From Polytrichum commune (taxonomy: Eukaryota > Streptophyta > Polytrichopsida > Polytrichales > Polytrichaceae), in contig OX485809.1 of assembly GCA_950295325.1 (NCBI GenBank), positions 27,852,144 through 27,916,143 of the forward strand: a DNA stretch of 64,000 nt. Direction: 5' to 3'. Shown one piece after another: positions 13,579 through 57,512 of the stretch (position 1 is its first letter; each line of letters starts with the position of its first letter). The notes below the pieces were generated by a model. It made no database searches. It saw nothing but the letters and a program-made list of their open reading frames with translations, and was not told the origin of the DNA. Made by a program: the position numbers and the translations under genes.

Positions 13579-13591
13579 CTGCTGCTGGTGT

Positions 13592-13623
<32 letters not shown>

Positions 13624-13654
13624 GTGTTGCTGCTGCTGCTGCATGCTGCTGCTG
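13536..13654 (+). repeat. CTG/TTG trinucleotide repeat
   Basis: About 119 bp of ctg/ttg triplets with a higher-order duplication: a block of about 33 bp ending ctgctgctggtgttg occurs twice. On the minus strand it would encode a glutamine/histidine tract within a 164-codon open frame (13,279-13,773). No domain supports that frame, so the tract is recorded as a repeat. Confidence 0.85.
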
Positions 13655-13780
13655 AGCTTTGAAGCTGTAAATTGGTCAAGGAGGGCGAGGCGAGTATTGT
13701 TGCAAGGGGCGGTGGCCGGTGCTTGGACGTGGGCAGAAGGCGGGTGACTGCAGTATCTACGCAGGGAGCTCATCGACAGG

Positions 13781-14085
13781 CGGGTGTGAGTGAAGGTGGG
13801 TTTGTCATTTGTTAATGGAATGAAGGTTGGGTCTACCGGTAATTAGATTGTTGCTGCAACTGTTGTGTTTTGAGGGGCGTCGTAGCGTCGCGTGCGCCGT
13901 GGTCAGGGAACTGAATGTGTCGATGTGTCCGGTCATGGGTGACTGAAGGTTGGTTTGTGACATTTGTTGATGGAATGAAGTGGTTGCGACCAGTTTGGTG
14001 AATCAATAACTAGATTATCGTTGCTGAAGTGGTGTTTTGGGGGGCGTCGTAGCGTCGCGTGCGCCGTGGTCAGGGTAAATGTGTC
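13781..14085 (+). repeat. Local tandem duplication, two units of about 150 bp
   Basis: Unit 1 (13,781-13,930) and unit 2 (13,931-14,085) share gtgaaggtgggtttgt..catttgtt, then ggggcgtcgtagcgtcgcgt and gcgccgtggtcaggg, then aatgtgtcgatgt. They are separated by small insertions and deletions. Confidence 0.8.
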
Positions 14086-19300: not shown

Positions 19301-19362
19301 ACAATCGGCTACGACCAGCCATGCCACTCAAAATCTGCAAACTAGAGCCAAAGGACACCTGA
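16317..19362 (+). CDS. BEL1-like (BELL/TALE) homeodomain transcription factor, five coding exons
   Basis: Gene model join(16317..17654, 17959..18089, 18245..18442, 18667..18727, 18904..19362), 728 residues, all junctions in phase with GT and AG ends. In plants BELL proteins pair with KNOX partners and act in the nucleus on development. Visible parts, in order: a GLTISP segment near residue 268, possibly the ZIBEL-type motif; an SKY-like box near 345-365 ([15 protein letters not shown]); a BELL-like helical region near 430-515 ([14 protein letters not shown] onward); and the homeodomain near 531-593. The homeodomain has the TALE insert HFLHPYPEDKDK, split by an intron, and the third helix [15 protein letters not shown] followed by MVEEMY. 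The BELL region departs strongly from the usual conserved pattern, and the exon 2 donor (GG then GTTATA) is weak, so exons 2-3 are the least certain. The homeodomain exons are very secure. The ATG was chosen as the first in the long open exon. Confidence 0.9.
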
Positions 19363-39135: not shown

Positions 39136-40056
39136 TAATTATTGATGGCATAATCCAATGTGATCATAAAACATTGTGTTTTTTGAGAGTCCATTGTGAA
39201 CCACAAGATGTGCCCTACACCACTCAATTAATAATATAGCTAGGTATCCAATTACCTAGAGAGTGACCACATAAAGGTCTACATTCCTTAGCGTGAGCGT
39301 AGTAGCTTTGAGGTTCTAGAATGTTTGAGATTGTGTATGGCTAGTTTAGTTTTGGTGATGGGGCTGAACTGAGATGGGAACCAGAAGGAGTGGATGTTCA
39401 AAATGATCGCATATGAATGAAGTACCTTTCATCCGTCCAACATAAAAACTTAGACCCTTTTTAGGAATTAAAATGGCATTTATCTAAAAGATACCGAAAA
39501 ATTATGTGCTCATAATCTTTAATTATTTTATGTTCTTTACTAAACATAATTGGAGGGGGATTTGAATGACCATTTAATGAGAGAAAGTATCTTCACTTGA
39601 TAATGAATAAGATATTTTGTACGAGGTTCAAAAAGTATGAGGAAATGAACATGGACATGATTTGGATTTGCTTATCATCTTGTGTGATTATGGGTTTCAT
39701 CTCTTATGACAAGTGGGTGCAGGGTTAAAAGTGTTTGTTCAAGACCCACATATTTTAAAAACAACCTATGCTTTTTCAGTTAAGGAGGAAGTTTGAGATG
39801 GCTACTAGAGGATGATACGATAGGGTGGATAACCTAGCGGACAAAAGAGGGGTTAGGGTCGGAGGTACCACATGGTGGTTGCCAATTGCTAGATGTAGCA
39901 TCCCCCATCATTCACCATTTATATTTCACAAAAACAACGGTTGGAATTTTGGGGTCGCAAAAACCCTACTACCTTGGTTCCTCTCTAGAGGTATTTTTTT
40001 GATGACGTGCATTGAATGTGTAAATGTATGGTGCACCATGAAGATGTTAGGTGAAA
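39136..40056 (+). repeat. R-long copy 2, left part
   Basis: Collinear with positions 1-870 of copy 1, up to the insertion point of the CACTA element. The sequence resumes at 57,429. In copy 1 the joined site reads caccatgtgagctccacctg (about 880-899), with no insertion. Confidence 0.85.
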
Positions 40057-40587
40057 CACTATATTCGTTAAATTGAGACTTTCTCTAGTCTCAAATTAAT
40101 ATATGGATCAAACAACATGAAGATGTCTGAAACTATATTGTCAACAATCTCAAATATATTAAATGTTCTAATATCCCACACCTATGATGTGCGGACATAA
40201 GCACATATGGTAGAGCACTCAACACCAATTTCATCAACAAAAACACATTGGGTAGAGCACTCCAAACAAGTTTCACCCAAAAATATATATATAATGATTT
40301 CTATTATTAGCATGCTCCATAGAATATAGACATTGCAACATACAAAGTGCATGTAATAAATGCATATTTTTTCAATGGACAATTTAGTCCCAAACTTAAT
40401 AAAAAAATGAACTTCACATTTGTATTGAAATATAGTAAATGGATATTCATCCAACTCCAAAACAATATAGTATTCGTAAGTTCTACCCAAACTCTGCCCC
40501 AATTTTGAAGAGCACACATATGAGTAATATATGTTCGTAGAATTACTGTTTACACTATAATCATGCTAACACAATCCTACCAACTTC

Positions 40588-43500
40588 TCATTCAACGTGG
40601 GTTGCTTCTTCTGCGATCCGAGCAAGGTTGTCTTTTGCAAAAGTTATGTACTTTTGAGGGATGGACACTGATCCACTATGATTTTTCCGTGGTTTCCATG
40701 CTATGAATATGGAATCTGTATCTACCCAAGATGGACCGTGCTCAGAATCCACCTTCCACCGAAAGTTAGGGTTTGTATCCCAGCCTGTATAATGCCGAAT
40801 CACATCTTCATTCCTTGCCGTCGGTCGGTAGTACTCCACTTGTATTTGTCGAAAATGAGGGCTGGAAGTTACAAAATTGGGTTTGGACAAAGCTCTTGCC
40901 ACCCACACTGGCTTCACATATGTCTCGTCTCCAGGACGCAAAATGAGCATATATCCTTCATGACAATCCACTGCAATGCGGAAAGATGGTGGCGGACGAC
41001 TACTAGCAGGCCCCACGTAATGGTCGTCCACATCAAACTCCTCTCGAACCTCTCCATTTCCCAAAAGACTAGCCTCTGAAGCTTGTACATCGACTCGTGT
41101 TTGTGGCCAAAATCCATGCCTCAAAGTATGAGGGCTATCTTGGTGGAGGTCTACCAAGGCGGCACGAACACGTGTCCAATAATGTATCCAACTCCCATAA
41201 CGATGCCAACATGATCCGCCAACATCCGCTATCTTCAAACTCTCCCAATATTGTATGAAGCCTGATATACCTTTCAAAATATCCTCCAAATTCTTCATGG
41301 CTATTGGCTTACAAGGGCTAGGCTCCCCATCCGGTAACATGGTCTTCCCATCCGCATCCACGCGCCACACAAGAAGACCCTCCGGCGGGCTCCAGTCTTG
41401 TGTCGTGCACAACAACTTGTATTGCATGGCCGGGACACCATCGTCACGCATGTAGAACCGGAATTGTTGTGCCTTCGTATGCCCGATCAATCGGTGAGCT
41501 CCACTTCGAATATAAGGTTCTATAAATGCCTTGAAGTCTGGCACCTCCTCAATCATATGGGGGATGACGGGAACGTTCTCCAAATCCATGTACGACTTCA
41601 TCAATAATGGGATTGTAGGAAAATCCTCCTCCCGCAACTTCATGCTCCACCGCCCAAAAGATGCATCAATATCATCGTGCGTGTGGCCTACCAATAGGAA
41701 GGACACAAAAACCTCCTTGAAAATGCCTTTCGCAACCAACAACGACCAATATGCAAATACATATCTGCTTTTATTGTCCTTGGCACAATTGTCCAATTGG
41801 ACACGCAAAGTTGGAGGCAATTTCTTGGCAATCACGGGTTCATTGGGTGGCTCGGGCAACGAATGCAAGCATACATCTTTTCCATCCAACACCGCTTCAT
41901 ATAAAGGTGTTGAACCCGTGTTCTCAAATAACAATCCTGAAGAATAGGCTGGTGGTTTCTCTAAATCACGTAAAAGCCTTGCAAATGATCCTATCGTGTG
42001 GTTTGAATCCGCTGGATACAAATCAAGAGCATAATGAGCAAACTTGACATCACCGTGTCCATGTGCAATCATTCCTGCAATGCCAACCCAACGTGATTAG
42101 CATCTATGTATGAATAAACCATTATGAAGGAATCCATGTTCTCCAGTACATCACGGAATAAAAAACCACAACATTTAGGGTATGTCATGACATTGTTTCG
42201 AAGTTCACCTGTAACCGATACAGGCAACTTAAAAAACCCATCCGTGGCCTTGATTCGATTTGCAAAACATGGGGAGGCTGTTTTGGCATGGTCCATTTTG
42301 TCATGGATGACCGTAAGAACCTCCAAGGGCCTGGAGATGGACAAAGCTCTATTTGTGTAGTAATCATTACGGTGTGCCTCTTGCATGTTTACGTGCTTGA
42401 AATAGTTCAATTGATGCGCTGCATATGACTCGGTACCCATCGTGTGTGCATCCCGGAGGCGCTTCAACTTCTCGCAATTAGAGCACCTGGCAAATTTGTC
42501 CCCTCGTCTTTTTGTAATGTATTCGCTAAAGTTTTGTTTCTTGATTGCACTTAATTTTGACAATGAAATTGGCTCCAACCCAATCTTCTCGCCAACTGCA
42601 TTAACGTCCAACAATATGTCTTTCCATTTTGTGCCTGTGGGAAGAACTTTCTCCACAACCTTTTCACCGGTTGTGAGTGTGCGTGTTTTGTGCGGCATTG
42701 CATCAGCAAGGGGGACAATGATGGTTGCTAGAGTTGCCGTTGCTTGCCTTGTTGCTTCCCTAGGTTTCTTTAAACCCACGTTCCCATTGTGACGGGACCG
42801 GCGGCCTTCCTTGGCATAAGCAGCTTGTCTATAGAAGTCCGCCTTCGACACACCGTAAATGGTGTACCATGCCTTACAACACACGTCTATGCTTTCAATG
42901 ATGATTACCTTGCGACCCGTCCCATTCACATGTATTGCCCTATGGACATCAAGTTTTTTTGTGGATCTTAGACGAAAATCTCCAAGCCACATTTCTTCAC
43001 GGATGGCCTTCAATTTATCCCTTGGAAACAATTGGCAACAACAATGCACACAACAATCCTTTGTGGCAACTTCTCTTATGGACTCCTCCCCAAGCAGCCT
43101 TTGACATTTACAATCAGTTGCAGATGGAGAAGGACGTGCCACAGTATCGTACTTTCTTTGACCCTTGCGTGGCCGCATGTTTGATTGCATTTCCTTTTCG
43201 AGTTGCATGTGTCGTTGCTCATGTTCACGCAAGCTAACTCCATCAGTCGTGACATTCCTCAATGGCCACCTGCGGAGGGAGAACCTATGAGTGGGATCCA
43301 CCTCAGAAGGAACGAGTGACTCCAATATGACAATCCCAACGTCCTCGGTGCCAAGCGGATTTTGATCAATGCAATCTTGTGGATGGGTGTTACGACAGAT
43401 ACCCTCCGCCACAACAACCCCATTGTCATTAAGAAGTAACACATCCAAATTCACCCATGAAGCTCTTGAAAGCACGGCACACTCTGGAATGGGACAGTCC

Positions 43501-43712
43501 GGTACGGAACGCGAAGGTATATCGAAATGCTCTTCATCTGAACTCTCATCCATAGTAGCCTCCCCGACAATGTCTAGCTCTTCCTCAGATGCAGATGGCC
43601 AAGTGGCCATGTCTTCTCCAGACGAATACCCTCTTCCAGTATACCCATCCATTTTGCCTACACACATGAACATGGAACCTTGTAAAGAATTGACAAAAGC
43701 TATAGGGTCCAA
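40588..43712 (-). CDS. DUF7869-like transposon protein, candidate transposase
   Basis: Model complement(join(40588..42074, 42209..43712)), 996 residues. The 134-bp intron has a GT donor and ttgcAG acceptor, and joining it restores the frame (PVSVTG then MIAHGHG). Without splicing, the first part stops at 42,069. Motifs: IHDKMDHAK near residue 471, VQLDNCAKDNKSR near 593-605, and VGHTHDDIDASF near 631-642. This D ... DN ... GHTHxDxD pattern is characteristic of multicopy proteins annotated as DUF7869, which I infer to have an RNase-H-like nuclease fold. Cysteine clusters (CCVHCCC near residue 230; CSNC near 410) may bind zinc or DNA. A downstream ATG at 43,652 (MDGYTG) follows a good 3' splice site (tgtgtag) and may be the true start, giving 976 residues. 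It diverges from the plus-strand gene. Confidence 0.75.
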
Positions 43713-43864
43713 TAGAAAAACACAGAAACCTTATCAATTTCGATATCCAGAAAATACTCAACAATTTGTTGTATGAATATTATATCGATGGGTTCCAAAA
43801 AGATGGAGCGCACAACAGTTTATTCAGGATCCGTCTATGCACATCCCCATTGTGTGCATGAGGG

Positions 43865-44742
43865 TGGGTTTGGGTCGAGCAACCCAAACCTCGTGATAGG
43901 ATGGGCCTGCTAATCCAGGCCCAACCCGTGACAGGGGTGGGTTTGGGTCGCTCGACCCAAACCTCACAATGGAGGTGGGTTTGGGTCGCTCGACCCAAAC
44001 CTCACAATGGAGGTGGGTTTGGGTCGCTCGACCCAAACCTCACAATGGAGGTGTGTTTGGGTCGAGCGACCCAAACCTCGTGACAGGATGGGCCTGGTAA
44101 TCCAGACCCAGCCCTTGATAGGGGTGGGTTTGGGTTGCTCGACCCAAACCTCGTGACAGGATGGGCCTGGTAATCCAGACCCAGCCTTTGATAGGGGTGG
44201 GTTTGGGTCGCTCGACCCAAACCTCGTGACAGGATGGGCCTGCTAATCCAGGCCCAACCCCTGACAGGGGTGGGTTTGGGTCGCTCGCCCCAAACCTCAC
44301 AATGGAGGTGTGTTTGGGTCGTGCGACCCAAACCTCATGACAGGATGGGCCTGGCAATCCAGGCCCAACGCGTGATAGCGGTGGGTTTGGGTCGCTCGAC
44401 CCAAACCTCATAATGGAGGTGGGTTTGGGTCGAGCGACCCAAACCTCGTGACAGGATGGGCCTGCTAATCCAGGCCCAACCCGTGACAGGGGTGGGTTTG
44501 GGTCGCTCGACCCAAACCTCACAATGGAGGTGTGTTTGGGTCGAGCGACCCAAACCTCGTTACAGGATGGGCCTGCTAATCCAGGCCCAACCCGTGAGAG
44601 GGGGTGGGTTTGGGTCGAGCGACCCAAACCTCGTGACAGGATGGGCTTGCTAATCCAGGCCCAGCCCGTGATAGGGGTGGGTTTGAGTCGCTCGACCCAA
44701 ACCTCACTATGGGGGTGGGTTTGGGTCGAGCGACCCAAACAT
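43865..44742. repeat. 16-copy palindrome array (higher-order hairpin array)
   Basis: Sixteen copies of the 22-bp palindrome (halves GTTTGGGTCG and CGACCCAAAC, two variable central bases) are joined by two alternating spacers: a short one (ctcacaatggaggtg) and a long one holding a second hairpin (gggcctg ctaat ccaggccc) and cccgtgacaggg. Centres seen are CT, AG, TG and a few mutated forms (gagcaacc, ttgctcg, ctcgcccc). The array sits between the minus-gene start codon and its putative TATA box, so it is probably in the 5' leader or a 5' intron. Every frame is free of stops, which creates a spurious 232-codon frame. Confidence 0.95.
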
Positions 44743-44955
44743 TCCGCAAATTCCGCCTTAAATTGCGGTAATCTTCCATATTTAGCTACGTGGATACTAA
44801 TTGGAAGAATTCAGGCCGTGCATGGCTGTTGTAATTAGCTACTCATCAACGGATGCATACACGAACCTTGCACTCCACCACTACTTGAGAGAGCTTGCAA
44901 CCATTTCAGAATGGAGAGATGAGAAAAAAGGAGCAAAGTTTGGGGGGTTTGGTAC

Positions 44956-44961
44956 TTTATA
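44956..44961 (-). promoter_or_regulatory. Putative TATA box of the minus-strand element gene
   Basis: Minus-strand TATAAA lies in a GC-richer context (ggcgggtag before, gtaccaaacc after). A pyrimidine-rich stretch (tttgctccttttttctcatc) follows some 20-40 bp downstream, as in plant core promoters. Initiation would lie near 44,930, about 1.2 kb from the start codon, with the palindrome array between. Confidence 0.5.
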
Positions 44962-45443
44962 CTACCCGCCTCCGCCTTGGCCTTCCTCTTTGGATCCCTT
45001 TCCCGCCCGAACGTAAACCCTAAACCTAAGTTCAAACCTTCTGACAGAATTTCCCGCTTCTTGTTGGTAATAGAGCATCCATATTTAGCTTGCCTCTTCG
45101 TGGCGCCAACCATCAAATGACCTTGGACAACTAACCTCCTAATTCCGCTATTAAATAACTACACAAAATATGATGTGTGGATTTGATTATATGTAGTGTT
45201 GTTACCACCAGTGTCCGAAAAGTTTTTGAAGTTATTGAGGTTAATTGCCTACCTCTTTAAAAGGGCATAGGCTATTTCCCTCATGGCATAGGTTGCATCC
45301 TACAATATCAAATTTTTGTAAGTTGAAAACCTTTTGAGTTTTTAAGTTACCTGCCAATTGCCTTTAAAACTAATTTTTAGTAGGTTAAAATCCTTCATAT
45401 CTTTTAATGTTGTAGGCTTTAAATTCAAAATTTGAGTACTAAG

Positions 45444-45516
45444 TGGTATCCTTGGCAGGAATTGAACCTGGCTAAGCCCTTCACCACGTTTGAAGGCCAA
45501 GGATTAACCAACTCCT
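45444..45516 (-). mobile_element. tRNA-like / SINE head relic
   Basis: On the minus strand: aggagttggttaatccttgg, then ggcttagccaggttcaattcc, then tgccaaggatacc. A-box-like and B-box-like blocks are spaced as in a tRNA, and the total is about 73 nt. The acceptor ends do not pair well, so it is not called a functional tRNA. Confidence 0.45.
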
Positions 45517-46611
45517 TTTTAAAGAGTTGATTATAAGTTATGAAAGGTTGCTAAAATTCAAATGAGTTTAAGGGTGAAAGTCCTCACCATCTTCTGATTC
45601 AACCTCTATGCGGTGATGGGGCTTGGGCTGTGGTATTTGTAAAGATCGACGGGGAGGGAGTCAGGGCTATTATTGATATCCGCCTATGTGCCACTCAAGA
45701 GCCCCGAGTATTAGCCTAAAGATATGTACTTAGGCCAACTAATTTCCCAATTTGAAGAAGGATGAATGGCTAAAATCCGCTCTTTTAAAAACTTTGTAGG
45801 CAAAATTTCCTACATGTTTTTTACCACATAGGTTGATATCCTATGTTTTAAAATTGTCCATAGGCTCTTTGTCCTACACTTTCAAAATTTTATAGGCTAA
45901 GTCACAAATTTTGTAGGCTGCATTTACACTAGCCTTAGGCTCTTGGCGGACTATGGTTACCACCCTTACATGCTCAACATTAATTTTCAATCCTATGACA
46001 GTTAGTGTTAGAAGTAAATGTGTTGCTACCTTCTACTCTCACGTATATTTCTTCTTTTCACATCCTTACTAACACTAAATTCAAACATGTCAATGCCACA
46101 TATTACTATAGCTTATATTTAATGTTTATTACTTTCATATGGTTATTGATATATTGTGTATTCACTTGTATTTAGTGTATCAAACACTAAATATCATACT
46201 TATTGTAGTTGTGTTTTGTACCTATAGTTTTTATTGATTTGGCTTGCCAAAAAAAATGTAATCAACTTTATTTGTTTTAACAAATGTTTGATGAAAAATC
46301 TAAACATATATAGTTGTATCTATTCAATGCAAGTTGAGCAGAACATGTCCTTAAATACATGTTGGTGTGTTCTAGTGTCACTACACTAAATAAGATATTT
46401 AGAGATTTATACACTAAATATGAACGCATCTACGACGTAACATAACATACATAACAAACATAACATGAAATGTAACCAACGTTCATGTTCATGAATTAGA
46501 CTATTGTGATATCTATATACATTTGTTTTTAGAACCACAAGCGACTTGGCCCCCTCATTTGACCTATGCGCCATTCATTTATGGCTTCGAGTGCAACAAG
46601 ACACATTTATA

Positions 46612-46646
46612 TACCCTAAACCCTAAACCCTACACCCTACACCCTC
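46612..46646 (+). repeat. Short interstitial telomere-like run
   Basis: ccctaaaccctaaaccctac followed by accctacaccct, a few plant-type (CCCTAAA) units. Too short to mark a fusion; more like a telo-box or microsatellite. Confidence 0.7.
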
Positions 46647-46657
46647 GTAGTTGTTCA

Positions 46658-47225
46658 GGGTTGCTTCCCACGGGTAGGTCACTTAGTGCATTTTAAAAAC
46701 GACGTGCGGCATAATATAGAGAGGATTGAAATCATTTGAAATAAAAATTATAAAGGAATTCCAAATAATGAAGGGGCCATTAAATGTAGACAATCCCATT
46801 ATAAGTAAGTTAGATGGACATAAAATGTGGGCCATTATTTTTTTGTAAAATTAATATAGGGGCTGAAGATAAGGTTCCTAGAAGGTATGTTTAGTATAAT
46901 GTTTGCTATGGTCTCCTATGTGTTTTTTTCATAACTTTGTTTGCAATGATATTATTGTTTGCACCCTTCTTTGTTTCCATGGTTTCCCTTAACAGGAAGT
47001 AGATTAGCTTTTATTACTTAAAAGGAATATAGAGTACAAAAAATTGCAGTGACTTGGACAATATAAGTAATGGAAGGGTGCAAACAAATGGGCCATTTTT
47101 GAAATTCAAGTAATTATAGGGAGGCTTTAATTCAACCCTTGAAGGTAAATAGCCCCAAAACAAAAAACCCTGAGCCGCACATGGTGCACAAAAATGCCTT
47201 AGAGTGACCTACCCGTGTGGCTTCC
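46658..47225. mobile_element. Putative 0.57-kb inverted-repeat element
   Basis: Left end gggttgcttcccacgggtag gtcact and right end agtgacctacccgtgtggcttcc are inverted copies. Similarity continues imperfectly over about 50 bp (gcattttaaaaacgacgtgcggc against gcatttttgtgcaccatgtgcggc). It lies inside the large CACTA element, so it is a nested insertion. No target duplication was identified. Confidence 0.6.
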
Positions 47226-48249
47226 ATATAGAACACCATCTACTGTAATTTGTGCCTCATTTCCTAATAAGATATGTTGTTTAATATATGTGGAGGGATC
47301 ATCCAACAACAAAGTGATTGCTTAAATGGCTTCATATAATGTTGAACTCCACATATTAGTATTTGATAGCTTCATATTTGTATACATGGTGCTTCTCTCA
47401 TTTACTATCACTATATTCAATATTTGTAGACTTTATCTTGTCTCAACTAAATATATGAACAACAACAACATTGTCTAATGTTTGGGTCGTCCTACCTAAA
47501 CCATCTTCATATGAGTTCTTAATTGGGTTCTTCAGCAAAAACACCCGCTTCAATATATTTGTATCTCATAAATATGTAAACTTGTAAATAAGTATGTTAA
47601 TGTTCCATCATGCTATAAATCAAACAACATCTTTGTTGCTTTTCGCAAACAACAATGATATTAAGTTGTCAACACTTAATATTGCATAATTCCATATTAT
47701 AATGAATGACACTACATAAACTTGTATAATTAGATTTAGTTCAATGGTATGTGTTAACGGATCCATCGTAGGCTATAGCATTGTCCTTTACCAACAACCT
47801 TCATAGATAATTACAATATATAACTGGAAACCATTCATTGTGTAAATGGTTACCATAGTTATATTATTCCATTATGTAATTGCCTACGAGGATTGCAATA
47901 TAATTATTAAATACTCCTCTTAGTCTAGTATCTATCATTCTCGATTCATGCATATGTGTAGATTACTAAAATTACAAAACCAATACAGTTTCATTATTTG
48001 ATATTAGCAAATCCATCGGGGGACCATTAAATTAAAAACCTTAGGCTATAAAGGTTTTTTAGTATCCTCAAGGATGGTATGGGATAGGTGGCTAAAGGAT
48101 ACCCACCTGCGAGGCCTATCGACCGTCGATGGGCCTGGGGCTCTCCAATGGCTCAAATTGTGTATTCGTTTGGGCCATGGAGCGCCCCGTGACACGTGGC
48201 GGCCATGAGCCGAACGGACACGAAAGGCGCCGGCCCGAATGGGTCCCGC

Positions 48250-48500
48250 CCTTGAGTGACCTTCCCCCTTTCACTCTCCCCTCCGCACTTTCTCCTTCTC
48301 TCTCCTCCGCTCCAAGCTCCTCCTCCTTTGTACGTTCCTCATACTTTCTGGAGGCGCCGCCGCTCTTGAAAGCGCCGCCTCCTCCCTTGCATTCTCTCTC
48401 TCCTTGTCGAACTCGCATTCCCTCTCTCCTTCCCTCTTCATCATTATCTCATTCTCTCTTTCACTCCTCCTCTTCTTTTGATCTATTTTGTTGTTCATTG
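48250..48500 (+). promoter_or_regulatory. Probable core promoter / transcription start region of the plus-strand element gene
   Basis: A sharp CT-rich, GC-richer block (ccttccccctttcactctcc ... ctctcctccgctccaagctc) of the kind seen at plant transcription starts, about 1.5 kb upstream of the start codon at 49,915. The 127-codon frame across it (48,129-48,512) is serine/proline/leucine low complexity from the CT bias and is not called a gene. Confidence 0.45.
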
Positions 48501-48771
48501 AGTGCGCATTGACCGAGTTCTAAGTGTAGTATGAGTTTAGGGTTTGTTTTTGTATTAAAGTCTATACATTTTAGCCATTTCAGAACGTCTTTGTTGTTTT
48601 GGAGTGTGAGTGTTGTTTCAAAGTGGTTGTGTCAGTTCCTCCTGGTCTTAGAAACATTCATGTGTGAGTGTAGAGTGATTTCGGAATTAGAATGATTGTT
48701 CGAAAATCAGGATGCATGTGTGGCCTTCAGATAGCTTCTTTGTTCATGTTTGTAAACACTTGTTACATTCA

Positions 48772-48899
48772 GAGTGAATGTTTGTGAGGGATTGTTTAAT
48801 TCTGAGTGAATGTTTGTGAGGGATTGTTTAATTCTGAGTGAATGTTTGTGAAAGCTTCTTCAATTCAGAGTGAATGTTTGTGAGGCGTTCTTAGTTTTC
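48772..48899 (+). repeat. 32-bp tandem repeat, four units
   Basis: Unit gagtgaatgtttgtgaggga ttgtttaattct starts at 48,772, 48,804, 48,836 and 48,868; the last two are partly diverged. It lies in the presumed 5' leader. Confidence 0.9.
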
Positions 48900-49107
48900 T
48901 GATATCCAATCCTTTCTAGAATCAGCTTCCAAGACTAGCTTGTTAGAACTGCTTCCAACAGCAGCTTGTTGTGTAGTTTGCAAAGCAAGGTGATTTCTTC
49001 AACTTCTTTATGTGTGTCAATTTCTTTAGAGTTTCGCAGCATCTACAATGCATAAGCATTGTATATGCTGCGTAAACACATTATAAAGGTCTCTGGAATC
49101 AAAAGTG

Positions 49108-49891
49108 TTTCGAGAGACGACCCAAACTTCAGTTTGAAGCCCTAAAACACTAAACTCTGCAGCTGGTTTGGGTAGAGCGACCCAAACTCTCCAGCTGGTT
49201 TGGATCGTTCGACCCAAACTCTAAAGATGGTTTGGGTCGTTCGACCCAAACTAGCAGATGCTCTGGGTCGTGGGCGCCAATCCATCTGCAGAGTTTGGGT
49301 CGCTCGACCCAAACCATAAGCATTGTTTGGGTCTAGGGTTTAGCCAAACTCCGCATCAAATGTTCATTTATAATTAATTTAATCATCATCTTGGGTGAAT
49401 ATCTAACCCTATCGACCCAATCCATCTGCAGAGTTTGGGTCGCTCGACCCAATCCATCTGCAGAGTTTGGGTCGTTCGACCCAAACAGCGCATGAAATGG
49501 TAATTCATAATTTAAGTAATCATCATCTTGGGTATGATCTAAGGCCATAGCCGATCATTCCATACCGCTACAAAGTTTGGGTCGAACGACCCAAACTTTG
49601 CGTAAATTTTTACTGCTTACGAACAATACTTACACTTATAAACAACAACTCAAACACCCAAGCAATAATGAAATGACCCACAACTAGAACAGTAGCTCGT
49701 GATGATTGTTGTATCCATGAACTTAAAGATTGGTTTTCGTAGCCAAATAATATATTATTCATTAGCCATTGTAGGCACAGGTTTGGGTCGTTCGACCCAA
49801 ACCTGTGAAAAGTAACCCCATATATAAATGTTACTAAACCCAGACATAAGCCTATATGATTTGAAAGAGTTTGGGTCGCCCGACCGAAACT
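49108..49891 (+). repeat. Cluster of about nine 22-bp palindromes upstream of the plus-strand gene
   Basis: Near-complete copies at about 49,164, 49,197, 49,228, 49,293, 49,434, 49,466, 49,577, 49,780 and 49,868, plus decayed halves. Centres include TT, CT, AA, AG and CC. Several are joined by ccatctgcaga spacers. The cluster occupies the presumed 5' leader or 5' intron, ending at the 3' splice site just before the start codon, mirroring the array in the minus-strand gene. Confidence 0.9.
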
Positions 49892-49914
49892 AACATATGT
49901 ATTTCTACTTGCAG

Positions 49915-51243
49915 ATGCCCCCCAAGAAAAGACCTGGAGAACGATGGTTCAAGCCGGCACCAGACGCGATCTGGCAGGAGCACGAAACTCCTAAAAACCA
50001 ATCCTACGTAGCAAAAGAAGACCTTGTAATTGCATGGTCCTTTCTTGTAGTAAAGGCAGCTCAATTCAAAATCCTCCTTGTTTTGAAGGTTGGCACGAAG
50101 GAGCAACACACATGGGATGCTTTGACGGGATGGGAGGTGGCATCAGTTCATGCTCTAGGAGAGCACGTTGACGTCATCCTGGAAAACTCTTCTCTGGAAA
50201 ATGTGCACATGTTCATGCATGAGCAAGCCGAGCCATTCGATCCGGTATACGTGAAGGAATCCTGCGCTGAGCCAGACATTGTTAAACCGGATACAATCTT
50301 CATAGATGCGATCATTTCAAACACGAAGGTTGCAACCAGGTTCACTAAACTTAAGCAGGCAATCAACGCAATAAACAAGACCCAGCAAAGCAAGTCAAAA
50401 TCTCAACAAGCTGTGAGGCGCAAGGCGACTGCTGAAGAGGGCGCAGGGTCGTCAAGACCTCAAACAGTGAGGAAGCCCCGACCGGTTCCAGCTGACTCGA
50501 GGAGAACAACACCTACGGCAACTCCTGCTGATAGTGAAACACCGACGCCATCACAAAGCCGGCAGACGACACCATCTAAGAGGCCGAGAGAGTCAGTATC
50601 TGCCATGACAGATGAGCCTGTTTCACCAGAGCTACGTATGCCCAAGCCCGGGGAAGGAGTGGAGCCATCGGAGATCCAGAAAATACTCAACAATTTCGAC
50701 ACCAAGTGTTTACATTGTTTTTTCATGGGCAGAGAATTCAAGTTTGATGTCAACATCGCACAATGCCACCTAGCGCCACCAGAGAAGTGCGTTCGGGCAA
50801 AGGAAGATGCGTATGTTGATTGGTTAATCGCCCAGATGGTGAGCGACCAGTTTAAACATGATAGGCAGACTATTGTTGTCATGCCTCAGGGACACAAAAG
50901 AATGCCTACACCGGATATGTGGCCTTCTATAGAGAAAGGCGATTTTTGGCTGATTGACGGTCAGCACAGTGTTGAAGCTTCAAAGAAACTTCAACTGATG
51001 ACGGAGTGGAATGATCCTAATGGTCTAAAGGAAAAATTGAAGGTATGGAAGGCATTGGTCGTGTGGTCGGACGACGAAACCCGGCTGAGCGATATCTCCC
51101 GCTATTTCAACATGAATAACAAGAAGCGGGCATATCAAGCTTCTTGGATTAGGAACATCATGGCATCGCGGGATGTGTGGGAGTTCTACGGCCGGCCTCC
51201 CAAGGAAAGGGAGAATGCAAAAGACAAGAATCCAAAGTGGGAG
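49915..51243 (+). CDS. Plus-strand element gene, exon 1: N-terminal region with ParB-like segment
   Basis: 443 in-phase codons from ATG (MPPKKRPGERW), which directly follows a 3' splice site (ctacttgcag), to a GAG/GTGAGC donor. The first 150 residues are unassigned (CD-like AWSFLVVKAAQFK, TGWEVASVHALG). Residues about 165-260 are a Ser/Thr/Pro/Lys linker. Residues about 345-430 contain FWLIDGQHSVEASKKL, followed by KVWKALVVW and then DISRYFN. The pattern matches ParB/DGQHR-type N-terminal domains, which in bacteria act in chromosome partition or as nucleases, often fused to DNA methylases. The usual DGQHR arginine is serine here. It is the first exon of a gene continuing at 51,557; all introns are phase 0. 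Function in a plant element is unknown. Confidence 0.7.
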
Positions 51244-51556
51244 GTGAGCATTGTTTCTCAAACAGAGTTTGGGTCGCTCGACCCAAACTTTGGGTTTCTT
51301 CATACAGTTTGGGTCGCTCGACCCAAACTTTGCGTTTCTTCATACAGTTTGGGTCGCTCGACCCAAACTTTGCGTTTCTTCATACAGTTTGGGTCGCTCG
51401 ACCCAAACCTTGTGTTTCTTCATACAGTTTGGGTCGCTCGACCCAAACCTTGTGTTTTAGTTTGTGTTTGTCTACGCAGTTTGTTGTTCATCATTTTTCT
51501 TCTTTGTTTGGAAACAACATATTGAGAATTAACACGCATTCTATGCTCTTGTGCAG
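51244..51556 (+). repeat. Intron 1 with five palindromes at 42-bp period
   Basis: Donor GTGAGC, acceptor ttgtgcag. Five copies of the 22-bp palindrome with CT centres are separated by ttgcgtttcttcatac-type spacers (51,265-51,450). Reading through the intron stays open because the palindrome lacks stops in every frame, so an unspliced form would extend exon 1 by up to 94 residues. Confidence 0.85.
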
Positions 51557-52888
51557 CTTTTCAAATACCAAATGATAAACAAGTTCTCCTCAATTGACAA
51601 TTCAAGTCACAAGCAAAAGAAGTACAATGAGCTAAGAGGAGAGATCTACTTGATTACATCATCCGACATGGTTTGGCAGAAGTGGAAGACAATGTTTGAG
51701 AAACACGAGACAGGGGATCTCATGGATCCTGACACATGCAACCTCTTCAACTCGTCCTCTCGATTCAAGGCGATGAAGCCTCTCATGAGAGAATTCTTTA
51801 GAAGTCTGCAGGGTCTTTCGGAGGCGGAAATGGGGAAGGCGGCAACGCACATCTTGCACAACAACCCGACCCCTAAGAAATTTTGGGTGTACCCCAAAAT
51901 AGTCTTCACCAAGCCGAAATCCTTTGTTCCTTCATGCTACACAATGAAGGAATAGGCGGAGAATAGGAAGAAGAAAACAACGATCGTCCAGGAGCTGCAG
52001 AAGCTAATCCCGGAAAAGAACATTTTTGTCGATGACGAGGTGAACGAGGTGAACTGGAGAGCGTTCAAGGCTGAATACAACTTCACCAGTGCATCCATGG
52101 CAGCTCTGATCAGGGAGGCAGGAGAAGACTTCCTAAAGTCAAAACTGGTGAAGGGTGGGAAGAACCTGGCTCTTCCAGAACACTCGACGCGTGCCTTCTC
52201 AAACTTTATAAAGGAGAAGAAGATTGTAAGTTTTGAGGGGGATGCGCATTTCAACCTTGTCGCTTTTGACCCTATTAAAATCCAGGGATGGCCCGGCCTT
52301 GATTCCAGGAAAGAAATACGAGTAAGAGCAGCGGACCGGTTCCCCTTTGGTATAATAGACTTCCGGAGCATTCCTGGGAGTACGTTTGAGGGCACAATGG
52401 GTACACCCTTCTACGAGCCCTTCATGTCGAAGTTCGTGGAGTATGCAAGCCCTAAGCTTAGGGAGGTCGATATGTGGCTGTGGATAGTAGAGCATAGGAG
52501 AGCAGAGCAGGTGTATGAAATTGTGAGGAAATTGCAGCCTGAGTATGCGGTGTCTAAGTCTCACTACATTGCTGCACCGGCGGAGGGGGTGTACACGACA
52601 CTAAAGGACAAGAAAACCAAAGTCATGAATTTGTTGTGCTTGTACTTTGTGTTCAAAGCAACCTTGCTGAAGGTGGAGAACCACCCCATAACCCGGATGC
52701 AGAAACTATTCCAAGTTCCAGAAGGCCTGGGCGCAAGTAAGTCCCTCTACGACGAGGCAAAATATGCCATATACCATTCGGACGAGTTGCGGATGGAATT
52801 CTATCTCCGAATAATGAGGGCCTTGACGAGAAGAGGGGACTGTATATTCAACGTCTTCGGCGGCACCAAGCCCGTCTTCGCTGGCATG
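51557..52888 (+). CDS. Plus-strand element gene, exon 2: methyltransferase-like region with an in-frame TAG
   Basis: 444 codons in phase with exon 1, but codon 133 (51,953-51,955) is TAG; the frame is otherwise open on both sides (TMKE, stop, AENRKKKTTIVQELQKL). Read past the stop, the C-terminal half has FGIIDFRSIPG, then LREVDMWLWIV, and at the end GDCIFNVFGG continuing in exon 3 as MLGLNVYSYVDLN. The order resembles N4/N6-type DNA methyltransferases (DPPY block, strand and helix pairs, then the FxGSGT SAM-binding block). Both key motifs are altered, so activity is doubtful. ParB-like plus methyltransferase is a known bacterial/phage fusion order, which supports the reading. The TAG may be a recent nonsense mutation. 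Confidence 0.6.
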
Positions 52889-53110
52889 GTAAGCTCCTTA
52901 CCATAATTGTTTTCATAGTTTGGGTCGAGCGACCCAAACTAACACCGATGCTAGTTTGGGTCGCTCGACCCAAACTAACACTGATGCTAGTTTGGGTCGC
53001 TCGACCCAAACTATAACCTTTGCAATTGATATTAGGTCTTGTATGTACTTCCCCTTTTCGGTGGAATCACATGTTATGCCATATAATAACATCTGGTGGG
53101 ATTTCTGCAG
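52889..53110 (+). repeat. Intron 2 with three palindromes
   Basis: Donor GTAAGC, acceptor tttctgcag. Three 22-bp palindromes (centres AG, CT, CT) with aacaccgatgcta spacers at 52,917-53,011. Confidence 0.85.
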
Positions 53111-54610
53111 ATGCTGGGGCTGAACGTGTACAGCTATGTAGACCTTAATGACATCCAATTCTACAAGGCCCAAAAATCATTGGCGAAGAAGATGGATATA
53201 CTAGACTGGATCCCTGGGAGCTACGCCGAGGAGACTGTTGAAGGGGGTGAGAGCCCGCTGGATAAAGCGAGGCGTGTCAACCCTGAAGAATTGGCCATAA
53301 AGGTTCCAGTTGCTGTACCAGAGCCTCTGGTCCAAGTGCATCCAGGCACATCCTCTCGGCGACCGCGTGACGAGGAGGGGGAGGAGGAGGAGGAGGATGA
53401 GGAGGTGGAAGAGGAGGAAGAAGAGGCTAAAGTGGAGGGCGAGGTCGAAGAAGGGGGAACAGGCTTCACTCAGGAATCTGAAGCCCCTCAACGAAAGAAG
53501 GCAATGCGGGTAGCAACTCCACAAAGTAAGTTGGTGCCCGTCCTGACGGTTGATGATGCCCGCGACATGTACTCCAGGGATGCGACTGCCGCGTTCAGGG
53601 AGAGGAGGAAACTAAAAGGCAAGAAACTCTATGGCGACTATGCCATCGAGGAGACAATTGCCATTAGCAGCGAAGACGAGGACGACATGGAGCTCGCGAA
53701 ACGGCTCAGGTCGGACCCTCCCTCTCCAGGTGCCTTCGCAGGGATGGTGAAGGTGAAGCCGGAAGTCCTCACCGTGCAAGAAGCCAACGAGAAGATGTTA
53801 AGGGACGAAGAACAACGCGTCCGCTTGCAAAAGGCCGCTGCTGAAGAACCCTCAGTGCGGAACGAAGTGGCAGAGCTAAGGGCTCTCTTATTGGAGCAAG
53901 AGCGACTGCGGGCATTGGCGCAACCTCCAACTAGTGCGGACTTGATCACGCAAGTGATTCGAGGCATGTGGGCGCAGGGTTTGGTGGTGGCTCCCCCGGG
54001 CTCATTTCCACACTTGCCCCCCGGCTTCCCTCCCCAGAACATTCCTCCGCAGCCCGTGCCGCAATCCTCCTTCAGCTTTCAGCACATGGTTCCCCCCCAC
54101 GTCCGTCCGTATCCGCCGGTTCAACAAGCGGATGACCCCAATATATGGCGCCTTCCCGGGTCTTCTAGACCTGTGACCCCCCCACCACTTCGGCCGCCCC
54201 TGGTGATCCCCCCGCCCCATCAGCAGGACGACCCCCACATGTTTGGGTCGTCCGACCCAAACCCGCCCCCCCTTACAGTGCAACAAGGCCAATCTCATGA
54301 TGCACGAGAGTTTGGGTCGGCCGACCCAAACCCCGTTACCGCTCAGTCTTCAATGGACCAGCATGGGTCTGAAAGAGACACACCCATGCCTGATGTTGAA
54401 GGTCCTCGAGGGCCTGGTGATACCTCTACTCCTATCCCAATCGATGAACCTATGCATGATGCACATGCGGAGGTTGGGTTAGGAGAAGGTCCTGACACTG
54501 AGCGCTTGCAGGAGAGGGGTGCTGACATCGTCGGAGAAGGTGGTGGCAAGAGAGAACGACAAGCGGAGGCGGTGGAGGCTTCCATGGCGTCCAGGCATGA
54601 CCAGGGAGAG
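53111..54610 (+). CDS. Plus-strand element gene, exon 3: acidic, coiled-coil and proline-rich linker containing two in-frame palindromes
   Basis: 500 phase-0 codons. It starts by completing the methyltransferase-like block (MLGLNVYSYVDLNDIQFYKA), then a highly acidic stretch (EEEEEDEEVEEEEEE near exon residue 100), a Glu/Arg/Leu-rich helical segment (AELRALLLEQERLRALAQ) and a proline-rich tail. Two copies of the 22-bp palindrome lie in the coding frame at about 54,240 and 54,310, adding FGSSDPNP and FGSADPNP. The donor GAG/GTAATA at 54,611 leads to exon 4. If it is not used, the frame ends 12 bases on at 54,622. Confidence 0.65.
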
Positions 54611-55101
54611 GTAATACACTGAGACCTCCTCAGTTTGGGTCGCTCGACCCAAACTCCTGGTCTATTGTCTTGTTGCCGTGGTCGTGTCCCCCCTAGCTAG
54701 GAGGAACTGCCCCCACCCCGTCCATCCGCTCTCGCATCCCTTCAGCCCCCCCCCCCCCGACGATCACTAACGTCGCCTGTCCCACGATTTTACTCGAACT
54801 TGGAGGCGTGCACACAATTTTGTAGATGTTGAATTAGGATAGTTTGAACGGATCGTTCAACGCGGCTTCGCACCCCTAGGCATTTTGTACATAGAGCATT
54901 GCAAACAATAAAATTATTATTTTGTGCCCTTATGTTTGTTTTCGTGTTCAAATGTATATTTTTTCCTCTTGCCCCCTCTTGCATTTGTATGGCCGCCTAT
55001 GCATAGTGGTTCTTGTATTTTTCACAGAAAATATTGTATTCACTTTAAGTGGACATAGCATGACATAGTCTTCCCCCGCCTTATGTCGCTCGTCTCCACA
55101 G
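54611..55101 (+). other. Probable intron 3, one palindrome and a C run
   Basis: GTAATA donor and ctccacag acceptor, phase 0 on both sides. Contains one palindrome (54,632-54,653, CT centre) and a 12-base C run at about 54,746. If intron 3 is not real, the FCP1-like frame would be a separate downstream gene starting at 55,165. Confidence 0.55.
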
Positions 55102-55914
55102 GGATCGGAGCATAGCGTCGCGGCTCCCCGCCGGGCCTCTCCAAGAAGCGAGGAAGGTAGCGCGATGGTCCCCCCCATTTTACCCGTTCCACCTTTGCCG
55201 CCTAAGACCCGGTTCCTGGTGTTAGACCTCAACGGGGTCCTCGTCCAATGCGTTCATTGCCCGAGGACCCCCACGGTGGCCTTTTGCAAACCCGAGGACG
55301 CGAATTACGACGGGCCGCCCACGTTCATAAAGAGCAAGCTAGTTCACCTCCGCCCGTGGCTTCGGACCTTCCTCCAGATCGCCCAACAACGATGGTGGGT
55401 GGTCGTGTGGAGCTCCATGAAGGCCGAGAACACCAATGCAGTCGTGGAGTTCATCTTCAAGGGCATCGAGCCCCCCTGCATGGTCCTAGCACAGGAAGCC
55501 TGTAGAATATTGTACACACCGGACGGCAAAGTCGTCAAAAAACCAAACAATCCCGCTTCCCCCCAATACCTCAAGGTCTTGAAGCCCATTTTTTGGGACC
55601 AGCGTCCGTCATTGATAGGTGTCCCCTACGACGTCCGTCCCACCCGGGAGAACACGCTCATGGTGGACGACAGCGCCGCAAAGAACATGTTGAACCCGAC
55701 GGCCAACTTAATAGTTTGCCCTACGTGGACGGTCGAGAAGGTCCGGGACCGATTTTTGTTAGACCTTAGTAAATACCTCCAGGCGCTCAGGGGAAGCGGA
55801 CTACCTGTAAACAATTTTGTTAGGAATAATCCGATAGGCGAGAGATACTTGGATCCACGAGACCATTTGTACAGAGAGTTGTTCTCTCACGCGAAATTTA
55901 ACAAGCTCATTTGA
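55102..55914 (+). CDS. FCP1/NIF-type HAD phosphatase-like domain, exon 4
   Basis: 270 residues from the exon start, or 249 from the internal ATG at 55,165. HAD motif I is FLVLDLNGVLV: the first Asp is kept and the second catalytic position is Asn, as in the plant NIF-like group with DLNG/DVNG. Further matches to FCP1-like domains are VHLRPWLRTFL, WWVVVWSSMK (motif II region), FWDQ, and NTLMVDDSAAKN (motif III/IV), ending with an NNPIGERYL segment typical of this group's C-terminus. FCP1-family enzymes dephosphorylate Ser/Thr, classically on the RNA polymerase II tail; the Asn makes catalysis uncertain. It is in phase with exon 3, so it may be the C-terminal domain of the large protein. Confidence 0.8.
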   Translation, partial: GSEHSVAAPRRASPRSEEGSAMVPPILPVPPLPPKTRFLVLDLNGVLVQCVHCPRTPTVAFCKPEDANYDGPPTFIKSKLVHLRPWLRTFLQIAQQRWWVVVWSSMKAENTNAVVEFIFKGIEPPCMVLAQEACRILYTPDGKVVKKPNNPASPQYLKVLKPIFWDQRPSLIGVPYDVRPTRENTLMVDDSAAKNMLNPTANLIVCPTWTVEKVRDRFLLDLSKYLQALRGSGLPVNNFVRNNPIGERYLDPRDHLYRELFSHAKFNKLI

Positions 55915-55918
55915 GGCA

Positions 55919-55922
<4 letters not shown>

Positions 55923-55950
<28 letters not shown>
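55923..55950 (+). repeat. (GT)n microsatellite
   Basis: Fourteen uninterrupted gt dinucleotides, beginning nine bases after the FCP1-like stop codon. Confidence 0.95.
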
Positions 55951-55953
<3 letters not shown>

Positions 55954-56059
55954 CGCCCGCCCACTTTGTGTAATATATGCTTCATATGTATCTTGATTTT
56001 CACGCGCTCTAGCAAACCCTCTTCCTTTGGGTTTTGTTTCGTTTCCTTTTTTGCGCCAG

Positions 56060-56413
56060 CGTTTGGAGCCCTCGATTGACATCGTCAGCGAGTCAGAGTT
56101 GGGGAGCTTCTTCTACGAGGCCGTTTACGACGCCGCGTCAACCATTGACTACTCCAAGGAGCCTATTGACGCCGGCGTCGTCGATAGCCCCCCACCCAAG
56201 CAAATCTTACGGCGATCTCCGTCCCCGTCGCCGCTCAAGGGCATAAATCGCAAATGCGTCCGGACATCCCCCTCTCGGCCCGGCGGAAGTATTACACCTC
56301 AACGGCGGCTGCGGATGGACGCACGGCCAACGAAGAGTGGAACCCTTCCTATTCCTTTGCGGGACGCCTTGCCCCTCCTTGCCAACTCCGATGGGAACGC
56401 CCCCGGTGACAAG
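56060..56413 (+). CDS. Downstream exon 5 of the element gene family
   Basis: 118 phase-0 codons between a gcgccag acceptor and an AAG/GTGAAC donor. Content: LEPSIDIVSESELGSFFYEA, then PPPKQILRRSPSPSP and a basic/proline tail. No known domain. How it joins upstream is unclear, because exon 4 has its own stop; skipping part of exon 4 from a phase-0 GT at 55,807 would link them. A decayed homologue at about 59,190-59,430 shows it belongs to the element family. Confidence 0.5.
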
Positions 56414-56549
56414 GTGAACCCCCCCCCCCCTCTCTAAAACATGGTTAACCGCGCATTACAATCATTTTGCACTTAAAAAATGATCGTGTGACACGTTTGG
56501 GTCTTCCTCCCTAAACTAACACATGTGGTCTTGCAATGACGCGTTGCAG

Positions 56550-56882
56550 GTTGCTCCCACCCGTAAACCTATGCGGTCTAGTGCGTCCATCGAGTTCGAG
56601 CATATGTACGCCATGACCAGAAATGCGAGACAATCCACTTCATCGTATTCGAATTCTTCGACGTATATTTCGGGCGGCCGACGGACTCCAAAATGTCTTA
56701 TGGATGGCGGTCACCCCAAGAATGGCTATAGTCGCGGGGCGGAGATTTTCAGGAATGTTGAAGCAATGCGAGCAAAAGAAGCCGCAGCAAAAGAAAAAGA
56801 GGCAAAAGAAAAAGAGGCAAAAGAAAAAGAGGCAAAAGATAAAAAAGAAAAAGAAAAAGAGGCAATCTCCGAGGCTAGATAG
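56550..56882 (+). CDS. Downstream exon 6: C-terminal Lys/Glu-rich coiled coil
   Basis: 110 phase-0 codons after a gcgttgcag acceptor, to TAG at 56,882. It begins VAPTRKPMRSSASIEFEHMY and ends in a repeated KEKEA tract (about 30 residues) preceded by AEIFRNVEAMRAKEAA. A decayed match to the RNVEAMRAKE segment occurs at about 59,735-59,800. Probably the end of the same gene or of a small downstream gene. Confidence 0.5.
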   Translation, partial: VAPTRKPMRSSASIEFEHMYAMTRNARQSTSSYSNSSTYISGGRRTPKCLMDGGHPKNGYSRGAEIFRNVEAMRAKEAAAKEKEAKEKEAKEKEAKDKKEKEKEAISEAR

Positions 56883-57011
56883 GCCATAGTAGGCGTAGGG
56901 TTTTGGGCCATAGGCAACATCATTTTGGGTCGCACTATCCAATGTATGTGTGGTGTTAGCATGCTATGCATTTTACATGCCATACTTTGTATGTTTTTTT
57001 TGCAATAATAT

Positions 57012-57290
57012 AAGTGTCACATGATTTCCCCTTCAATATGGTCCAAGGTTTGGATTGCCCTAACTAAACCATCACAAATATGAGTTTGGAATATTTTGTA
57101 TGTTATATTATATTGGTTCACATAGTTCCCCTTCAATATGGTCTAAGGGTTTGGAGTGCCCTACCTAAAACATATTCATACAAGATCTCATATTTTGTGT
57201 GCGATAATATGAATGTTTTAAGATTTCCCCTTCAATTTGGCCTAAGGTTTGGATTGCGCATCCTAAACAATCCCAAATATGAGTTATTAA
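57012..57290 (+). repeat. Subterminal repeats of the CACTA element
   Basis: Three degenerate units of about 100 bp share ttccccttcaatatggtc(c/t)aagg and a diverged palindrome such as ggtttggattgccctaacta aacc. Subterminal repeat arrays are a normal feature of CACTA elements, where the element's own DNA-binding protein attaches. Confidence 0.7.
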
Positions 57291-57428
57291 TGGGGTTCTT
57301 GTTCTAAATACCCGACACAAAGTGTTCGCATCTTACAACTTTCTCCAATATGTGTTCCATTTATCCTTGTTCTTATTTATGTGAATGTCTCAAAATGCCC
57401 AAAAAGTCTCAATTTAACGAATATAGTG

Positions 57429-57512
57429 TTGTGAGCTTCACCCAACTTCTATTTTTAAAAGGAACATGGTCGCTTTCATGACAACCAATTTTGGTTTAGT
57501 GCACATATCATT
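57429..57512 (+). repeat. R-long copy 2, second part
   Basis: ttgtgagcttcacccaac through ctttcatgacaacca continues copy 1 at about 883-960, up to the M1 insertion. Confidence 0.75.

Follow-up and report, generated by a model that had tools for sequence, protein, structure and literature searches.

Arrays of family-specific palindromes in DNA transposons of Polytrichum commune, candidate addresses of a transposon-encoded regulator

Main finding

Within a 64,000-nucleotide stretch of the Polytrichum commune genome (assembly GCA_950295325.1, contig OX485809.1, positions 27,852,144 to 27,916,143 of the forward strand; hereafter the window), all 37 copies of the palindrome GTTTGGGTCG-NN-CGACCCAAAC sit within one 17,376-bp DNA transposon, which carries a gene for a DUF7869 protein (gene A) and, divergent from it, an accessory gene (gene B) in which four exons were recognised. 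Sister families of this transposon carry other palindromes at the same genes, and the window palindrome recurs in a second, unrelated kind of transposon; the accessory proteins of both kinds carry a DGxH motif. We document here the sites, their geometry, their conservation, their family specificity in the loci compared and their co-occurrence with a DGxH accessory gene. Judging from the sequences, we hold it on balance probable that the palindromes serve as the address on the DNA for a sequence-specific regulator encoded by the transposon itself, with the dimeric product of gene B as the likeliest candidate.

Palindromes in the window

The window was searched with up to three mismatches allowed over the 20 arm positions and the two centre positions left free. 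The 37 copies span 43868-54654 (28 perfect, eight with one mismatch, one with two and none with three), close to the roughly 36 described in an earlier reading made from the sequence alone, and 100 shuffles gave no match. Loosening the search to four or five mismatches adds only five sites in the window (56495, 56923, 57048, 57247 and 59962), so that the palindrome class has a sharp boundary; one copy with four mismatches falls outside the element. The 37 copies form seven compartments plus one isolated decayed copy, listed below; the 610k element is a relative at 611-629 kb of contig C1.

43868..44740, 16 palindromes arrayed in the space that separates the divergent genes A and B, linkers of 16 or 51-52 bp
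47480..47501, isolated decayed palindrome with two mismatches
49166..49890, nine copies along the gene B leader
51267..51448, five copies in 40-bp units within intron 1 of gene B
52918..53011, three palindromes in intron 2 of gene B, in 36-bp units
54241..54262, palindrome within coding exon 3 of gene B, encoding FGSSDPN, 22 of 22 bases the same in the 610k element
54310..54331, palindrome within coding exon 3 of gene B, encoding FGSADPN, 22 of 22 bases the same in the 610k element
54633..54654, palindrome in the intron that follows exon 3 of gene B

The two long frames of gene A are free of copies, and those near this gene are all upstream of it. Over 131 copies from the window and related loci, with up to five mismatches allowed, column entropy is 0-0.80 bit in the arms as against 1.82 and 1.74 at the two centre positions, which bears out the near-invariant arms and variable centre noted in the sequence-only reading. 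When sites of different compartments are compared (window, 610k and 2.15-Mb elements), the arms agree at 98.6%, the centre at 26.6% and the 15-bp flanks at 26.6%, the last two values being at chance level; these sites were chosen with at most three arm mismatches, which raises the arm figure and not those of the centre or flanks. The palindromes of the 610k element occupy the same compartments as those of the window despite different linkers and periods. Its two exon-3 palindromes, 69 bp apart, match those of the window including the centre, in an exon that is 73.6% identical overall and in which the 47-bp linker between the palindromes looks unrelated.

Spread through the genome and a second kind of transposon

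In the 408 Mb of genome searched, in which seven contigs of 42-78 Mb were seen, the perfect palindrome occurs 9231 times. Placement is known for the first 100 of these copies, which extend along C1 to 2.16 Mb; by a hand count, 77 of them fall in or beside three elements of the window family, 23 in loci of the unrelated kind and none elsewhere. The confinement to the element claimed by the sequence-only reading thus stands for the window and not for the genome; among these 100 copies the motif is not equally frequent outside the element family, with the second kind sharing it. The three elements are the 610k element (36 copies; both ends matched, sequence compared directly), one at 1175-1191 kb of C1 (16 copies; left end and an exon-2 match found, the right end not among the matches listed) and one at 2113-2130 kb of C1 (25 copies; assigned by its ends, both of which matched).

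Of the copies in loci of the second kind, 10 are in the 2.15-Mb locus of C1; the other 13, at 437-479 kb, seem to represent one element broken up by insertions. Beyond the array, pieces at 438, 462 and 477 kb match the 2.15-Mb element by blastn, so that 21 of the 23 copies are tied to this kind by sequence adjoining the array, and two (at 475 kb) by the array alone. At C1:463000-475300, an array of the window type seems to be split by an insert of about 12 kb with inverted GCTATTTTGCGAGCG ends; GTGTCTCGG palindromes at 468.6-471.9 kb lie within this insert, which looks like a nested element that bears another palindrome.

In the second kind the palindromes lie in the promoter and intron of a gene with a SWIM-like finger, whose SWIM match (13.0 bits) is under the cut-off of 19.6. 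A divergent accessory gene combines a DGNHR motif (WDGNHRFFAWKNYI) with a methyltransferase-like region (PHROG, 5e-5); no Pfam match was found for this region, and the ParB-like part was recognised by motif only. A tblastn search for gene A found nothing below E 0.03 in the second kind, and one with the A and B frames nothing below E 0.017; the matches of gene B exon 3 there coincide with palindromes. A 61-bp imperfect inverted repeat lies at C1:2151952/2164280, with no target duplication recognised. Mutator-like elements have a MULE transposase domain and a 9-bp duplication, and Pfam found no match to that domain in the second kind. In viral contigs of IMG/VR the window palindrome occurs 0 times.

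Other families carry other palindromes

Further elements were collected in a genome search for DUF7869 (150 scored of 1491 candidates). We name the families W (window), X, Y and Z by their palindromes, L numbers denoting the loci compared. The X palindrome, GTTTACGGACG-NN-CGTCCGTAAAC (L056/L058), has 847 perfect copies genome-wide and the Y palindrome, CCCACGGGTG-NN-CACCCGTGGG (L054/L055/L059/L060), has 644; the Z palindrome, GGGTGAGGCA-NN-TGCCTCACCC, is that of L057, L064 and L065. All three sit upstream of gene A and around gene B. In cross-counts over 13 sources, every off-diagonal value among the DUF7869 families is 0 at up to four mismatches, and the only sharing is that of the window palindrome, with 18 copies in the second kind.

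Gene B of X resembles that of the window over exons 1, 2 and 4 and part of exon 3 (L056/L058; 30.5% identity in exon 1, 37.9% in exon 2 and 40.4% in exon 4). Its palindromes are found in the leader, close to where exon 1 ends (10290, two mismatches) and, between the matches to exons 2 and 3, at 11771-11864, with a five-mismatch trace in the exon-3 frame. In Y, whose gene B shows 25% identity in exon 2 (L054/L059), one perfect palindrome is placed within the acidic frame (19005), and further copies occur in the leader and past the end of that frame. The NIF domain was found in gene B of both X and Y (4.4e-13 and 4.2e-11). Gene B of Z was recognised by its DGQH motif alone, by eye, and tblastn with gene B gave no match on the Z loci. 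L066, a fourth locus of this family, has no copy of the palindrome. In L057, long arrays of 59-bp units bearing the GGGTGAGGCA palindrome extend over 2361-6600 (59 copies at up to four mismatches in the 10-kb locus, three of them perfect), the units mostly having one degenerate arm (unit consensus GGTGAGGCATATGCCCCACC), as if half-sites decay.

A genome search that took the second-kind accessory protein as query (150 scored of 1142 candidates) led to six relatives with 44-50% identity. Other palindromes, three different ones in all, lie upstream in four of these six loci: GTGTCTCGG-NN-CCGAGACAC in L069 (997 copies genome-wide), GGGTTCGG-NN-CCGAACCC in L071 and GGCATCTCGG-NN-CCGAGATGCC in both L068 and L072 (36 copies genome-wide). 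The stretches compared end at the gene, their link to it being given by match positions, and tblastn sees the gene start only in L071. The palindromes of L069 and L071 are borne on tandem units of 214-244 bp, so that these copies are not independent. No clear array was seen upstream in L067 and L070, and none of the four DUF7869-family palindromes occurs in any of the six relatives.

At least three palindromes with the same arms within one 4.2-kb stretch or another were found in 10 of 14 gene-associated loci (about nine families, six of them with arrays) as against 0 of 15 comparison pieces (11 from the window and four from other loci), in a test devised after the arrays had been observed, with longer loci scanned in several stretches and comparison pieces in one each, and with two of the pieces (window 37801-42000 and part of L032) overlapping outer element sequence.

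The element and its genes

40055..57430, whole DNA transposon, delimited by inverted ends, target duplication and the homology boundary at 57430
40055..40082, plus strand, left terminal inverted repeat AACACTATATTCGTTAAATTGAGACTTT, 28 bp, perfect
57403..57430, minus strand, right terminal inverted repeat, 28 bp, pairing perfectly with the left
40051..40054, left target-site duplication, GTGA
57431..57434, right target-site duplication, GTGA
40588..43730, minus strand, gene A, DUF7869 protein, with long frames 42069-43730 and 40588-42096
49915..51243, plus strand, gene B exon 1 with the DGQHS motif (FWLIDGQHSVEASKK), from its frame and homologues
51557..52888, plus strand, gene B exon 2, from its frame, with an in-frame TAG at 51953-51955 in the window copy
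53111..54610, plus strand, gene B exon 3, acidic, from its frame, with a GT donor at its end
55102..55914, plus strand, gene B exon 4, NIF / FCP1-like phosphatase domain (PF03031, E 1e-15)

At the right end, homology among the window, a copy on C4 and a copy on C1 stops at 57430. Perfect copies of the terminal repeat number 330 in forward and 342 in reverse orientation genome-wide, and a 4-bp target duplication was present in 10 of 10 elements examined. The CACTA/EnSpm superfamily has a 3-bp target duplication and ends starting CACTA, whereas here the duplication is 4 bp in all ten and the element ends begin AACACTATA. The Sola superfamily has a 4-bp target duplication and a Sola-type transposase; the comparison here covers the duplication, which is of that length.

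Gene A matches PF25273 (DUF7869) with an E value of 1.2e-42, and its product is the probable transposase. The exon and intron limits of gene B were set by eye from frames and splice signals, and further exons beyond exon 4 are possible. Exon 1 gave no Pfam family above cut-off, and exon 4 no match in the PDB at E 0.01. Exon 2 is a 457-codon open frame in many other copies; among its relatives (127 scored of 1061 candidates), 36 are 97-100% and 91 are 78-81% identical.

L045 (C1:42393135-42397960) is a 4.8-kb deletion derivative with intact ends and a 4-bp duplication, which retains the DUF7869 gene and the 3' end of gene B. It has no palindrome within three mismatches and three copies with four, so that palindromes seem dispensable for mobility in cis. 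In the right subterminal region of the window element (57020-57260), about three 100-bp repeats carry a quasi-palindrome, GTTTGGATTGCCCTAACTAAAC, that looks like a distant or decayed form of the site. Elsewhere in the window we noted a long glutamine-rich frame (13282-13842, minus strand) and a host gene of the plant BELL type at 16221-19359, with a POX domain (E 2e-7) and a homeobox KN match just under cut-off.

A transposon-encoded regulator and its rivals

Family-specific sites, their like geometry, their placement at the element's own genes and the presence of an accessory gene in both kinds fit a transposon-encoded regulator, and suggest a separate protein for each family, one that recognises and regulates the copies of that family. 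In such a scheme, each 10-bp arm would be one half-site, with the 2-bp centre left unread in the window family. The product of gene B would gather on the family's own copies, at the arrays of the A and B promoters and of the B leader and introns, and once bound would alter their chromatin or transcription state through its NIF-phosphatase-like module, the methyltransferase-like module presumably taking the effector role in the second kind. The genes of the transposon would thereby stay expressed against silencing, or be tuned. When a lineage shifts the specificity of B, the arrays would be re-populated with a new palindrome by tandem duplication, and new palindromes would insulate the families from one another. 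Binding by B, its dimeric mode and the anti-silencing or activating outcome are what we infer from the arrangement of sites and genes.

The reading of the site as one selected for a dimeric binding protein, proposed from the sequence alone, is well supported by the invariant arms, the free centre, the random flanks, the unchanged exon sites and the palindromes of the sister families; the free centre itself belongs to the window palindrome only. A wider and more tentative proposal, which we regard as possible but less likely than not, is a diversified self-address code: two unrelated superfamilies of plant DNA transposons would use DGxH accessory proteins (perhaps ParB/sulfiredoxin-like), each family reading its own palindrome of 18-24 bp, in which a 2-bp centre separates two arms, with GTTTGGGTCG-NN-CGACCCAAAC used by both, its specificity exchanged or reached twice, and with interchangeable phosphatase-like and methyltransferase-like effector modules.

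Several observations weigh against a regulator encoded by gene B. Profile scans recognised no DNA-binding domain in gene B. Its product ends in a NIF-phosphatase-like domain and the second-kind accessory protein in a methyltransferase-like one, and in hhalign the two have at most the DGxH stretch in common (p 0.029), which leaves their reading of a common palindrome unexplained. A ParB-like nature of the DGxH region, suggested by the motif alone, was not confirmed: Pfam, NCBIfam, PHROGs and a PDB profile gave no support for ParB homology of gene B, and hhalign against three ParB_N proteins placed the DGQH stretch in the expected register with an E value of 0.014 and a probability of 3%. PF02195 has only four matches in the genome, on the small contigs C10, C12 and C23, which probably stem from bacteria contaminating the assembly. 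In the window element (55102-55914), L058 and L060 the NIF domain has D-L-N-G or D-V-N-G; active members of the NIF phosphatase family carry D-x-D, so the domain may be inactive.

The sites themselves add further difficulties. The centre is clearly free in the window palindrome alone and has one or two states elsewhere: mostly CG in X, only AA/TT in Y (one state read from both strands), mostly TA/CA in Z, and AT in all 36 copies of the GGCATCTCGG palindrome. Z copies are mostly imperfect, with 3 of 59, 1 of 29 and 3 of 26 perfect (7 of 114). Arrays are missing from 4 of the 14 gene-associated loci (L063, L066, L067 and L070); L063, tried as a further palindrome-bearing DUF7869 family, had to be rejected, as its one 22-bp palindrome is single-copy in the genome, which leaves that family without an array. 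Of the 1362 gap-free windows of 22 bases in the exon-3 alignment, 27 are identical, and these include the palindromes; the 610k copy also has the palindromes in a frame other than that followed from the exon start, so that its exon 3 seems frame-shifted; another frame of that element contains FGSSDPN.

The best-surviving rival, which we nonetheless consider unlikely, is recruitment by the palindromes of transcription factors or architectural proteins of the host, which the transposons would exploit. The same palindrome in two unrelated transposon kinds, whose accessory proteins share at most a short motif, would be readily understood in this way, but none of the first 100 copies lies outside these two kinds, and the different palindromes of the other families would require many host factors of matched geometry.

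It is quite unlikely that the DUF7869 protein itself binds the palindromes, for strand transfer or autoregulation. Gene A families and palindromes do vary together, arrays lie directly upstream of gene A, and the decayed-looking copies at 57048 and 57247, with four to five mismatches, are close to the right end. However, the good sites are not subterminal, the nearest being 2.8 kb from an element end, and the second kind bears the same palindrome where tblastn detects no gene A at the threshold given above. A role as a synapsis site in transposition is disfavoured by this internal position and by the L045 derivative, mobile-looking in its ends and duplication yet devoid of good sites.

A constraint on nucleic-acid structure, be it cruciforms or hairpins in leader and intron RNA acting in splicing, silencing or spread, is very unlikely. 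The dyads are perfect and many lie in leaders and introns, but selection for pairing predicts compensatory changes, and these are rare: two compensatory doubles were counted as against nine non-compensatory doubles and 74 single-sided changes, 23 of them wobble. Sixteen sites, moreover, lie in an intergenic array. The hairpin spread that the sequence-only reading had offered as an alternative is disfavoured by the same counts and by the absence of any of the first 100 copies outside the two kinds.

Neutral tandem-repeat turnover, in which slippage homogenises arrays and arm conservation is only apparent, is most improbable: the near-identical linkers within an array do indicate growth by tandem duplication, and the long tandem units of L069 and L071 bear palindromes, but the arms are common to seven window compartments with unrelated flanks, two exon sites are conserved outside any tandem array, and the geometry is kept across families, which would be unexpected under neutrality. 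The earlier claim of more than simple slippage is partly borne out: selection appears to keep the arms, and slippage or unequal exchange does multiply the sites.

Comparison with known systems

The closest parallel to a transposon-encoded regulator with its own sites comes from Arabidopsis, where VANC21 binds YAGTATTAY, VANDAL motifs form tandem repeats in introns and upstream regions and vary from one related element to another, and the unrelated element AT9TSD1 contains the VANC6 motif as well (PMC5735166); VANC binding and loss of methylation are reported there (PMC5735166; PMC10398659). As in that account, a family-specific short motif is repeated here in the non-coding regions of the element, and the VANC6 motif in an unrelated element resembles the window palindrome in the second kind, whereas the VANDAL motif described is 8-9 bp long and arrayed in one orientation (PMC5735166), unlike the palindromes of 22-24 bp with a 2-bp centre seen here. 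The window element differs also in its 28-bp inverted ends, 4-bp duplication and DUF7869 gene, and its candidate regulator combines DGxH with NIF or methyltransferase-like modules. VANDAL elements are of the Mutator type without inverted ends, and VANC proteins bear DUF1985; Pfam scans of the gene B exons found no VANC protein family. In bacterial ParB-parS systems, a dimer binds a palindromic site, and clusters of a perfect palindrome lie near the gene of the binder. Palindrome clusters near the gene of a putative binder are found here too, and DGxH is reminiscent of ParB by eye, but there is no partition context here and several palindromes occur within one genome.

Accessory proteins with ParB-like and N4C/N6A methyltransferase domains have been described in algal transposons, for example Sola1-1 of Ectocarpus, which is likewise a large element with the accessory gene on the strand opposite the transposase (PMC12477816). 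In the second kind, the DGNHR motif and the methyltransferase-like region are points of likeness. The sections of the algal report drawn on here mention no target site, in contrast to the candidate sites and their diversification in P. commune (PMC12477816); the last module of the window element differs as well in being NIF-like, and ParB homology is unconfirmed here. In fungi, TET/JBP accessory genes have been captured by many transposon lineages, so that there too unrelated lineages share one kind of epigenetic accessory gene; the enzyme is another one, and the parts of that report drawn on here do not mention family-specific binding palindromes (PMC12730594). In the open-licence literature searched, DUF7869 is not mentioned, and among the matches listed we found no report of these palindromes; six palindrome strings gave, among the matches listed, 10-letter strings only and no transposon-themed title, and no literature on palindromes of eukaryotic transposons was found among the matches listed.

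Implications

In the VANDAL elements of Arabidopsis, transposon-driven anti-silencing has been reported to be sequence-specific, its motif and protein changing in step (PMC5735166). The palindromes of the window and related families would extend such transposon-encoded, sequence-specific self-regulation. If the proposal is true, they represent a second anti-silencing system, whose proteins are unrelated, whose sites are long palindromes and which has several specificities in one genome, and transposons would repeatedly evolve private regulatory addresses. The palindromes would then also be candidate target sites for the class of accessory proteins reported in algal transposons. The families provide a natural set of candidate protein-site pairs in which change of DNA specificity may be studied directly.

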